Positions 20,089 to 24,004 of a DNA stretch of 64,000 nucleotides are shown here, piece by piece (the first letter of the stretch is position 1; each line of letters starts with the position of its first letter). Source of the stretch: an uncultured Acidobacteriota bacterium (GTDB lineage Bacteria > Acidobacteriota > Terriglobia > Terriglobales > Acidobacteriaceae); assembly GCA_903832295.1 (NCBI GenBank), contig CAILAZ010000309.1:1-64000 (forward strand), in the 5' to 3' direction. Under the pieces are notes generated by a model. The model was not told the origin of the DNA, did no database searches, and worked only from the letters and a program-made list of their open reading frames with translations. The translations under genes and the position numbers were made by a program.

Positions 20089-20164
20089 GCACGGGTGGCG
20101 AAGCGGCTAACGCGGCGGACTGCAAATCCGTTATTCATGGGTTCAAATCCCATCCCGTGCTCCA
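20089..20164 (+). tRNA. tRNA-Cys (anticodon GCA at 20122-20124), CCA encoded
   Basis: Acceptor GCACGGG/CCCGTGC, discriminator T then CCA; anticodon arm GGACTGCAAATCC; T-arm ATGGGTTCAAATCCCAT. Confidence 0.93.
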
Positions 20165-20781: not shown

Positions 20782-21132
20782 CTAGGCGGCCATCATCATC
20801 TTTGCAGTCATCGAACAGGACTCGGCGCAGCGTCGGCACATTTCCGCGCAACGCATCATCATCGGATTGTCGCTCATGCCTTCGCACATCATCGCGCAGG
20901 CGCTGCACATCTCGGCGCACATCATGCACATCTTGCCGCCCATGGGAGACATGCGCATCATCATGTTTGCGCACATCTGGCACATCTCCATGCAGTCCAT
21001 GAGCATGGACATCTTCTTCATGTCCATCATGCCCATCTTCATGCACTGCATCATGGCTTCCATGCACATTGCCATGCAGCTGCGACAATCCTCCATACAT
21101 CGACGCATGTCCATTGACATTTCCATTTCCAT
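20782..21132 (-). CDS. hyper Met/Cys-rich four-helix-bundle copper-binding protein (DUF326/Csp-like)
   Basis: 116 aa with 42 Met and 17 Cys by manual count; repeated CxxxC and CxxC patterns (MRRCMEDCRSCMAMC...RCAEMCRRCAESC); RBS AGGAGA. Confidence 0.8.
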   Translation of the reverse strand: MEMEMSMDMRRCMEDCRSCMAMCMEAMMQCMKMGMMDMKKMSMLMDCMEMCQMCANMMMRMSPMGGKMCMMCAEMCSACAMMCEGMSDNPMMMRCAEMCRRCAESCSMTAKMMMAA

Positions 21133-21256: not shown

Positions 21257-21288
21257 AAAAAAGCCCGGTATCTTTGCGAACACCGGGC
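21257..21288 (-). terminator. rho-independent terminator of the trans-sulfuration operon
   Basis: Minus strand GCCCGGT...ACCGGGC followed by TTTTTT. Confidence 0.8.
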
Positions 21289-21314: not shown

Positions 21315-22475
21315 TTATTTGGCGGCGAACGAGAGCGCGTGGCTGGCGGCGGCGGTGAGCGCCTGATCGAGGTCGGCAATGAGGTCTCCGCTGTCTTCAA
21401 TGCCTACGGAGATACGCACAAGTTCCGGCGGCAGTACGCGCGTGGCGGCGATCTCCGGGGGCACGCTGGCGTGCGACATGGCGGCCGGGAGGCTGATGGT
21501 TGAGTGAACGCTTCCAAAGCTGACGCAGATCTGGAACATCTTTGCATTCTCGGCAATTGCCTTTGCGGCCTCCGTGGAGTGCGCCGTAAAGCTCAATACC
21601 GATCCCGCCCCGCTGGCCTGGCTGCGCTGCAACGGGGAGTGGGTGAGCCCGGGATAGAAGACATGGCCGACTCGCGCATCGGCGGCGAGGAATTCCGCAA
21701 TCGCCTGGGCGTTGCGCTGCTGCGCATCCAGGCGGAGCTTCAGGGTCTTGAGTCCGCGTTGCAATAGAAAGCAGTCAAAAGGCGCCAGCGCATTGCCCTC
21801 GGCGTTTTGCAGGAAGGCGATGTCGCCGCCAAGTTTCTCATCCCGAACGACCACCATGCCGCCGGTGACATCGGCATGCCCGCAGAGGAATTTTGTCGCG
21901 GAGTGGAGGACGACGTCGGCACCCAACTCCAAGGGACGCTGGAGGTAAGGCGACATGAGGGAGTTATCCACCACAAGCAGCGCACCATTGGCATGCGCCA
22001 GCGCAGCGAGGGCGCGGAGGTCCAGTACGCGCAGCAGTGGGTTGGTGGGGGACTCGGCATAGATGATGCGGGTGCGCGGCGTGATCTTCGCCGCAAAAGT
22101 CTCGAGGTCTCCGGCATCGGCGTAATGTGCGGTAATTCCGCTGCGCTCGAGCACGCGGGTAAAGAGACGGCAGGTGCCGCCATAGAGATCGCTGTCTGCG
22201 AGAATTTCATCCCCGGCGCGCAGGGTGCGCGCCACGGCAGTAATGGCCGCCATGCCGCTGGCGAAGGCAAAGCCACGCTGGCCGCCTTCCAGCTTTGCCA
22301 CGAGTTCCTCAAGAACCTTGCGGGTGGGATTACCACTCCGCGAGTAATCGAAGTCGCCGAAGCTATCGGCGTGCTCCTGCTCAAAGGTCGCCGTCTGGTA
22401 GATGGGCGTGGCCGTGGGACGGTAGGGGTCGCCGGGGGCGGCCTGATGCTGCACGAGCTGACTAGCGAACTTCAC
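21315..22475 (-). CDS. trans-sulfuration PLP-dependent enzyme (cystathionine gamma-synthase/lyase family)
   Basis: GTG start at 22475 overlapping the previous stop, AGGAGG RBS; PLP lysine motif HSATKFLCGHADVTGG. Confidence 0.88.
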   Translation of the reverse strand: MKFASQLVQHQAAPGDPYRPTATPIYQTATFEQEHADSFGDFDYSRSGNPTRKVLEELVAKLEGGQRGFAFASGMAAITAVARTLRAGDEILADSDLYGGTCRLFTRVLERSGITAHYADAGDLETFAAKITPRTRIIYAESPTNPLLRVLDLRALAALAHANGALLVVDNSLMSPYLQRPLELGADVVLHSATKFLCGHADVTGGMVVVRDEKLGGDIAFLQNAEGNALAPFDCFLLQRGLKTLKLRLDAQQRNAQAIAEFLAADARVGHVFYPGLTHSPLQRSQASGAGSVLSFTAHSTEAAKAIAENAKMFQICVSFGSVHSTISLPAAMSHASVPPEIAATRVLPPELVRISVGIEDSGDLIADLDQALTAAASHALSFAAK

Positions 22476-23673
22476 TGGCGGCCTCCTGAGCGCGTTGGGC
22501 GCAAGACAGAGCGCAACCCGCGGCGGCAAAGGCCTGCGCGAGATCGGCGATGATGTCGGCGGGCGACTCCAGCCCGACGGAAATGCGGATGAGTCCCTCG
22601 GAAATTCCGAGAGCCGCGCGCGTCTCCGCACCGAGGTCGGCGTGAGTGGTGGAGGCCGGATGGGTGATCAATGTCTCCAGCCCTCCCAGGCTTTCGGCGC
22701 GCGAGCAGAGCTGGACCGAGTTGAGCACAGCGATGGCGGTCTCAAAGGGAGCGTCGAGTTCAAAGCTCAACATGCCACCGGCGGCGCGCTGCTGTCGCAA
22801 CGCAAGCTCGTGCTGGGGAAAGCTCCGCAGGCCCGGGTAGTAGACGCGGGCAACCGACGGTTGCGACTCGAGCCACTCGGCGATCTGCTGCGCGTTCTCG
22901 CAGTGGAGGCGCAGCCTGGCAGGGAGCGTCTTGATGCCCTGAAGGGTGAGCCACGCCTCGAAGGGCGCCTGTATGGAGCCGAGCGTCTTGCGAATCAAAC
23001 GGAAGCGCTCCGCAAGCTCCGGGTTTTGCGTAGCCAGCGATCCGCCGACGGTGGCGTTATGTCCGTCCATGTACTTGGTAGTGGAGAGGACGCTGATATC
23101 CGCACCCAGTTCCAACGGGCGCTGGAGCGCGGGAGTCAGGAAGGTGTTATCCACGGCGAGCAAGAGTCCGTGACGGCGCGTAATTTCAGCAACCGCGGCA
23201 ATGTCTGTGAGGGTGAGGATGGGATTGGCCGGAGACTCGATGAAGACGATGCGCGTCTGCGGGGTGATTGCCGCTTGCACGTTCGCGGCCTCGGAGGTGT
23301 CCACAAAACTGGCGGTGACGCCGAAGGGCTCAAGGATTTCGCGGAAGAGACGGATGGTGCCGCCGTAGAGCACCTTGGAGAGGATGGCGTGGTCGCCGGC
23401 CTTGAGGAGGGAGAAGAACAGCGTGCTCTCTGCTGCCAGACCGGTGCGGAAACACACTGCCGGCGGCGTACCCTCGAGTGCGCCGATGGCCCGCTCGAGC
23501 GCATCTACCGTGGGGTTGGAGACGCGCGAGTAGCTGAAACCCTTATCTACACCGACGGCATCGTGAACGAAGGTGCCCGTCTGGTAGAGCGGGAAGAGCA
23601 GCGAACTGGCGTGCGAATCCAGCGAGCGTCCGCCGTGAATAGCAAGGGTGGCAATGTCGTGCGGGGAAGCCAT
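22462..23673 (-). CDS. trans-sulfuration PLP-dependent enzyme (cystathionine gamma-synthase/beta-lyase family)
   Basis: LAIHGGRSLD..., PLP lysine motif LSTTKYMDGHNATVGG, VYYPGL. Confidence 0.88.
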   Translation of the reverse strand: MASPHDIATLAIHGGRSLDSHASSLLFPLYQTGTFVHDAVGVDKGFSYSRVSNPTVDALERAIGALEGTPPAVCFRTGLAAESTLFFSLLKAGDHAILSKVLYGGTIRLFREILEPFGVTASFVDTSEAANVQAAITPQTRIVFIESPANPILTLTDIAAVAEITRRHGLLLAVDNTFLTPALQRPLELGADISVLSTTKYMDGHNATVGGSLATQNPELAERFRLIRKTLGSIQAPFEAWLTLQGIKTLPARLRLHCENAQQIAEWLESQPSVARVYYPGLRSFPQHELALRQQRAAGGMLSFELDAPFETAIAVLNSVQLCSRAESLGGLETLITHPASTTHADLGAETRAALGISEGLIRISVGLESPADIIADLAQAFAAAGCALSCAQRAQEAASEVR

Positions 23674-23712
23674 TTGTTCTCTCCTGGCAGGTGAGTGGTT
23701 TATGTCCTAAAA

Positions 23713-23745
23713 CAAATTTGCCGTCTTGAGAGTCCCCCAGACGGC
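23713..23745 (-). terminator. predicted attenuator hairpin upstream of the trans-sulfuration operon
   Basis: Minus strand GCCGTCT-(12 nt)-AGACGGC followed by AAATTTGTTTT; the 5' arm is complementary to the leader ORF. Confidence 0.6.
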
Positions 23746-23770
23746 TGCCAGAAAAGAGTTGTGCGATTAC

Positions 23771-23848
23771 TCAAACACTCCGTGCTGGACGACCACCGCC
23801 TGGGGGGCACATGGCCATACGCATTCGAGAGTTGTTGAGCATCGTCAT
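23771..23848 (-). CDS. predicted Met-rich leader peptide, MTMLNNSRMRMAMCPPGGGRPARSV
   Basis: 25-codon ORF with ATG-CGT-ATG-GCC-ATG-TGC; RBS-like AGGAAA; promoter-like TTGGCA-16-TATGAT upstream; followed by hairpin 23720-23745. Confidence 0.6.
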   Translation of the reverse strand: MTMLNNSRMRMAMCPPGGGRPARSV

Positions 23849-24004
23849 CTAGAGTTTCCTATCACTGAAAACGGATAGAGGATCATAGCATGGAAAGTCA
23901 CGTTGCCAAACCCCCCGATCAAGATTCGCGAGTTTTTCATCGTTGCGCCAAGGGACAGGCGCCCCTCGCTTCAGTGGGCGCAAGGGGCGATGGTGACACA
24001 ACAA

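Follow-up and report, generated by a model that had tools for sequence, protein, structure and literature searches.

Comparison with relatives and RNA folding point to a ribosome-mediated attenuator of the trp/his type upstream of the two-gene cystathionine (methionine-forming) operon of an uncultured Acidobacteriota bacterium; this leader probably senses how much methionine is available by means of tandem Met codons within a short open reading frame (ORF). It lies within the stretch of 64,000 nucleotides that was analysed (contig CAILAZ010000309.1, positions 1 to 64,000; hereafter the window), and all features below are on its minus strand unless stated otherwise. On the best reading of the data, the output of the leader would be translational and, in most lineages, also transcriptional.

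In the proposed mechanism, the ORF of a ribosome-free leader would fold as a protector hairpin, hiding a segment designated R1. With R1 hidden, segment R2 would pair with R3 to give a terminator-like hairpin, an anti-Shine-Dalgarno arm would pair with the Shine-Dalgarno sequence of the first gene, and the operon would be off. A shortage of charged Met-tRNA would stall a ribosome at the first or second of the tandem Met codons (M1, M2), where it would cover the 5′ arm of the protector and leave R1 free to capture R2; this would remove the terminator, open the Shine-Dalgarno sequence and turn the operon on. With ample methionine, translation would proceed across R1 as far as the stop codon; once the ribosome is released, the protector should form again, which would return the operon to the off state. 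We infer the response to Met-tRNA charging, the direction of this response, the behaviour after release and the effect on both termination and translation.

Operon structure and gene context

The first gene of the operon (22462..23673) encodes a PLP enzyme resembling cystathionine gamma-synthase (CGS; family match to PF01053). By sequence this protein falls into the CGS/gamma-lyase group; cystathionine gamma-lyase and methionine gamma-lyase rank beside CGS as its best relatives, so the sequence does not single out a substrate. The second gene (21315..22475) starts with GTG at position 22475, overlaps the first and encodes a cystathionine beta-lyase-like enzyme, whose best structural match is the closest solved relative, the Arabidopsis cystathionine beta-lyase 1ibj; its top NCBIfam model is likewise cystathionine beta-lyase, with a score under the model cut-off.

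The distance between the leader ORF and the CGS-like gene is 97 nt. A putative sigma-70-like promoter (23882..23909; TTGGCA-16-TATGAT, extended -10 TGC, 10 of 12 matches) precedes the leader and would place the transcription start near position 23876, so that merely about 30 nt of RNA would lie before the leader start codon. A promoter-like sequence at the equivalent place was read by eye in many relatives. At five loci (L039, L040 and L065-L067), the promoter-like sequence, also read by eye, lies so near the leader ATG that the mRNA would be leaderless.

The operon likely ends at an intrinsic terminator-like site (21263..21288; a 10-pair stem followed by TTTTTT), found by a scan that yields about equal numbers of sites in shuffled sequence. 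Past a terminator-like site, 3′ of the operon, there is an ORF (20782-21132) for a 116-aa protein of extreme Met and Cys content (MEMEMSMDMRRCMEDCRSCMAMCMEAM...), which matches DUF326 barely over the cut-off and looks like a protein of the copper-storage type. A tRNA gene (Rfam, 66.4 bits) was located on the plus strand at positions 20089-20161.

The leader ORF and its methionine codons

The leader ORF (23771..23848) has 25 codons (MTMLNNSRMRMAMCPPGGGRPARSV, followed by a stop codon) and reads ATG ACG ATG CTC AAC AAC TCT CGA ATG CGT ATG GCC ATG TGC CCC CCA GGC GGT GGT CGT CCA GCA CGG AGT GTT TGA. It thus holds the run ATG CGT ATG GCC ATG TGC, on which an earlier note on this DNA had based its suggestion of a Met-codon leader. 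The tandem Met codons (23810..23824) are M1 (23824-23822), M2 (23818-23816) and M3 (23812-23810).

The leader was found in 44 analysed copies from approximately 18 lineages. M1 is retained in 39 of the 44 copies (it is absent from five), M2 in 43 and M3 in all 44; the conservation of M2 and M3 is partly ascertained, because both sat in the search pattern (up to 2 mismatches allowed), which excluded M1. The arrangement ATG-N-ATG-GCC-ATG, where N is one codon, is maintained among the copies, and the peptide motif R-M-x-M-(A/G/S)-M is retained across lineages. The codon between M1 and M2 is variable (Y, P, F, L, S, T, R, C or H in the 44 copies). The codon following M3 also varies (Cys, Arg, Pro, Tyr or Thr), with Cys in just 19/44 copies, and Cys is therefore not the signal.

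The reading frame itself is under constraint in this set, as judged from three features: (i) of the ATG triplets situated 42 to 18 nt ahead of M2, 41 fall in the leader frame, versus 2 and 0 in the other frames, (ii) the leader frame has a start codon and stays open in 43/44 copies, which neither of the other two frames does in any copy, and (iii) the leader spacing differs among copies by multiples of three nucleotides only. On this evidence the leader ORF is coding, and not merely RNA. The comparison of the 5′ regions of the operon that the earlier note had proposed as a check thus found a conserved, coding leader in the 44 copies. Within the leader hairpin, the strand facing the Met codons is more variable than the Met strand, and the ATG triplets are retained even where they are unpaired.

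The Arg codon ahead of M1 (23825-23827) is CGA in 40/44 copies, compared with a CGA share of 3.8% among the Arg codons of four genes of the window. This codon, together with the adjoining ATG, persists where its hairpin partner does not; one idea is that a slow CGA codon times the ribosome. With its coding frame and conserved Met codons, the leader resembles trp-type attenuators, whose leader ORFs carry the codons of the regulating amino acid, here putatively Met, in tandem.

Mutually exclusive RNA helices

R1 (CCCCCAGGCGG; 23796..23806) lies within the leader ORF and is the 5′ strand of a predicted antiterminator/anti-sequestor helix. The 3′ strand of this helix, R2 (CCGTCTGGGGG; 23734..23744), doubles as the 5′ side of the R2:R3 hairpin. 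The pairing of 11 bp, including one G-U, that the earlier note had proposed between these segments was confirmed, with a free energy of -23.0 kcal/mol. It is also supported by covariation, since four of the 11 pairs are altered on both sides, and none of 500 shuffles reached the observed covariation score, pairing percentage or count of doubly changed cells.

R3 (AGACGGC, 23726-23720), together with an interrupted T-tract, constitutes a terminator-like element (23709..23726): GCCGTCT (23745-23739) and AGACGGC form a hairpin, which is followed by AAATTTGTTTT. The T-tract after this hairpin is interrupted in the window, and a consensus terminator scan of the window did not list the hairpin. The proposal that R1:R2 sequesters the 5′ arm of the GCCGTCT/AGACGGC hairpin agrees with the folds, in which R1:R2 competes with R2:R3. 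A comparable R2:R3 stem with a T-rich tail is present in most lineages, and also in g80b (GGCGGTTTT); it is absent from g51, g79, g81 and the second copy of g57. R2:R3 by itself exhibits weak lineage-specific pairing.

Two further structures, which the earlier note did not contain, were recognised. The first is a helix between an anti-Shine-Dalgarno arm (TCTTTTCTGGCAG; 23745..23757) and the Shine-Dalgarno arm 5′ of the CGS start codon (CTGCCAGGAGAGA; 23678..23690). Its pairing is lineage-specific (-17.9 kcal/mol for arms of the same lineage versus -12.9 with arms from other lineages), and the hairpin enclosing it has a z of -4.6, reached by 0/200 shuffles. The terminator-like hairpin is nested within this longer hairpin, which also sequesters the CGS Shine-Dalgarno sequence. 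Because the R2:R3 stem and its T-rich tail are missing in the four cases named above, the anti-Shine-Dalgarno helix is, among the sequences compared, more widely retained than the terminator, with the exception of g81. The output that is conserved would thus be sequestration of the CGS Shine-Dalgarno sequence no less than termination. In one relative (L036, G211:C363), approximately 50 nt containing an inverted repeat are inserted downstream of the CGCTCAG arm and ahead of the Shine-Dalgarno sequence, and the Shine-Dalgarno arm is intact.

The second structure is the protector hairpin (23762..23847; -35.1 kcal/mol, z -2.7), which comprises almost the entire leader ORF and carries R1 at its apex. 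The sequence of its outer stem varies freely, yet in 14 of 17 lineages (Wilcoxon p = 0.0007) the outer arms match their own partners. The covariation of R1:R2, the fit of the protector arms and the exclusivity observed in the folds together point to the alternative protector, antiterminator and terminator helices expected of an attenuator.

Predicted effect of ribosome position

The RNA of the window was folded both as nascent and as longer RNA; the bases that a ribosome would cover were held unpaired, and the position of the A site was varied. Without a ribosome, the fold of the window was off (probability of R2:R3 0.95, of aSD:SD, the anti-Shine-Dalgarno helix, 0.91). Placing the A site over Met 23842, 23824 or 23818 gave a predicted R1:R2 of 0.98-1.0 in nascent RNA and 0.96-0.97 in longer RNA, in which aSD:SD dropped to 0.03. 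The fold was again off when the A site held the third Met, Cys or Pro codon. Thus, in the folds, stalling at M1 and M2 leads to read-through and the off state returns from M3 onwards; in the 18 lineages folded, the on-window closes between M2 and M3. When the downstream cover of the ribosome was scanned from 8 to 16 nt in the window, M1 was on at 10-16 nt (0.44 at 8 nt) and M2 at covers not exceeding 12 nt, with 0.55 at 14 nt; no cover in this range permitted R1:R2 for a ribosome stalled on the Cys codon.

The earlier note had argued that the placement of the codons fits sensing by Met better than by the single Cys. The preference for Met over Cys stands, given the retention of the Met codons, the occurrence of Cys in fewer than half of the copies and the behaviour of the Cys stall; the part of M3, the Met codon beside R1, does not, since a ribosome at M3 would cover R1 and M3 is probably not the inducing stall site. 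That the best-conserved Met codon gives the off state when stalled counts against attenuation, and so do the need of translation initiation itself for fMet and the interrupted T-tract of the window. Two objections were rejected. That a Met-stalled ribosome hides R1, and so acts in the wrong direction, holds for M3 alone and not for M1 or M2. That an untranslated leader is always on was dismissed for the window genome once the protector hairpin was included. In several lineages (g33, g51, g57, g79 and g81), however, the ribosome-free equilibrium fold already favours R1:R2 and thus the on state, and only kinetics could then keep them off. Pausing of the ribosome at the stop codon did not block R1:R2 in a simple nascent-RNA model, and the off state at high methionine would therefore depend on re-formation of the hairpin or on steric effects.

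Search for riboswitches and known leader peptides

An Rfam scan at the gathering score found nothing over the leader, its sole match being a distant tRNA, and a scan of the region with all Rfam models to E 10 gave two sub-threshold matches to unrelated families and none to a SAM model. SAM or other known riboswitches were rejected as candidates on these two scans. A search of the window's genome gave no match to RF00162 (SAM-I), and the impression of the earlier note that no SAM riboswitch covers the region was thus borne out. The NCBIfam leader-peptide models gave no match for the leader, although such short peptides are hard to match.

SAM-I was detected in 11 of 40 genomes with the leader (ten of g51 and one of g81) and in none of the other 29, versus 25 of the 27 orthologue-bearing genomes without an intact leader. 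This anticorrelation is only suggestive and is confounded by phylogeny. In the two genomes in which the flanking gene was read (L111, L112), SAM-I precedes a threonine-synthase-like gene and not a classic met gene; SAM-I is therefore no direct replacement for the leader.

Distribution in relatives and natural losses

Orthologues in the three relatives examined first carry the same leader (MTMLLTSRMYMAMRPPGGRRPASEV, MRLFATPRMPMAMPAPGGIRPASEV and MLHLLSNSRMPMAMCTPGGVMPASGV). A 23-nt core pattern matched in 46 of 399 genomes of the family, representing 16 of 80 genera, and its reversed control gave 0 matches; a few of the matches with 2 mismatches were spurious and were set aside by gene context. 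A covariance model recovered the same set and a second copy in one genome. In the wider phylum, this model found one more convincing copy, in a member of another class (G505, L149; MTTVRQERMSMGMTGPRAGVSCDGV and stop codon), which by eye has its own R1 and R2 (CCCTCGGGCGG and CCGCTCGAGGG), terminator and anti-Shine-Dalgarno arm upstream of a CGS gene. As its contig is short and the genome incomplete, this copy may stem from contamination or transfer. Other weak matches in the phylum (G320:C1, L161; G363, L179) were rejected, as they had no leader or CGS context. A Phycisphaerae record (L162), whose CGS is 59% identical to that of the window, has no leader upstream; its CGS is as near as those of many family members, which may reflect gene transfer or a mislabelled bin.

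All copies with a readable downstream gene precede CGS, save the second copies in genus g57. In this genus the two genes are apart, and two genomes have an extra copy before the separate beta-lyase gene (L067, L178), with an R1/R2 pairing of its own in which R1 and R2 have changed in concert.

A close CGS orthologue is present in 64 genomes of the family, and the 27 without a pattern match were read directly. Five of them, all of genus g81 (L084-L088), keep the terminator-like hairpin, have lost most Met codons (e.g. RMPRAI) and have no long R1:R2 complementarity; the remaining orthologues read have no leader. This joint decay of the Met codons and of R1:R2 is as predicted by attenuation. In some genomes of g32 (L099, L104 and L105), which have no leader, a tRNA-like sequence was noted by eye directly 5′ of the CGS orthologue.

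Alternative explanations

Two readings of the leader, an arrest peptide and a metabolite riboswitch, are less likely than an attenuator. In the former, ample Met or SAM would cause the nascent R-M-x-M-A-M segment to arrest the ribosome at or just past M3, where it would cover R1 and hold the operon off; without the ligand the ribosome would pass and R1:R2 would switch the operon on. By hiding R1, the arrested ribosome would both terminate transcription and close the Shine-Dalgarno sequence. The leader would then be the bacterial counterpart of the CGS1 arrest of plants, which concerns the same enzyme family. We regard this as unlikely. The strongest argument in its favour is that M3 is the Met codon retained in every copy, and that a ribosome positioned there would cover R1 and produce the off state. 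The conservation of the peptide motif across lineages and the existence of such an arrest on the plant CGS1 mRNA (PMC8137854) point in the same direction. Against an arrest peptide speak the variation of the residue after M3 and of that between M1 and M2, and the loss of M1 in five copies. A signal in the peptide would also leave unexplained why the conserved Arg is fixed as a codon (CGA). Moreover, the protector already gives the off state without a ribosome in the window, and arrest is thus unnecessary for repression there.

A metabolite riboswitch, perhaps for SAM, in which the R1:R2 helix and the hairpin that bears R1 in its apex form a pseudoknot aptamer and the ORF is incidental, seems to us less probable still. 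The conservation of both structures, the pseudoknot-like position of R1 in the apex and the retention of the CGA ATG nucleotides even where their partners are not kept speak for an aptamer; the strictly in-frame start codon, the spacing in multiples of three, the ATG triplets that persist while the opposite strand varies, the freely varying outer stem and the absence of any match to an Rfam family speak against it. The remaining reading, a leader that senses Cys in the manner of those ahead of actinobacterial sulfur genes, is very improbable; the pathway does use cysteine and one Cys codon lies next to R1 in the window, but this codon is single and not part of a Cys run, occurs in the minority of copies noted above, never frees R1 in the window when a ribosome stalls on it, whichever footprint from 8 to 16 nt is assumed, and belongs to a peptide that matches no NCBIfam leader-peptide model. 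Attenuation at the Met codons is the reading that we prefer.

Relation to known systems

Riboswitches, T-boxes or repressors are the usual explanation for methionine control in bacteria. No demonstrated Met-codon attenuator was found in the open-access literature searched; subscription papers fell largely outside this search, so the absence is weak evidence. Like the trp, his and leu attenuators, the present leader has a short ORF with tandem codons for the end product of the pathway, a stall position that would decide the outcome and three mutually exclusive RNA states (the protector, the antiterminator R1:R2 and the terminator-like R2:R3). It differs from them in reading Met, in a protector that spans nearly the whole ORF and in an off hairpin that also sequesters the downstream Shine-Dalgarno sequence, which in some lineages is the only output.

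A leader named metL, located before metNIQ of Streptomyces lividans, was proposed from RNA-seq annotation and not experimentally tested there (PMC8079986). As in the present leader, a peptide encoded ahead of a methionine gene contains several Met codons, but metL precedes a transporter gene, encodes a different peptide (MSTTSDRTPATEATTTPGARCMCRRMCAF), has no typical terminator and shows no evident sequence similarity. A survey of Actinobacteria reported no conserved RNA structures upstream of methionine operons (PMC1262725). The Cys leader peptides before cys operons described in the same survey also constitute leader ORFs ahead of a sulfur amino-acid operon; they differ in having runs of Cys codons near the stop codon and no conserved hairpins. 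SAM-I (RF00162) likewise represents RNA control of sulfur amino-acid genes, but gives no match at the present leader. The CGS1 arrest of Arabidopsis controls the same enzyme family through a nascent peptide region, but lies within the reading frame of the enzyme itself.

Another survey states that functions are lacking for almost all attenuators predicted in Acidobacteria (PMC2965389); the present leader, if it acts as proposed, would supply one. Methionine starvation limits fMet too, and in this genome a leader without translation is predicted by the folds to be off; the switch should therefore operate only in a mild range of starvation. The single hairpin that offers both a terminator and a lock on the Shine-Dalgarno sequence, with the lock alone in some lineages, would form a natural series for the shift from transcriptional to translational attenuation. 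As the relatives keep the same design, the cell probably induces methionine synthesis when its ribosomes stall for lack of methionine.
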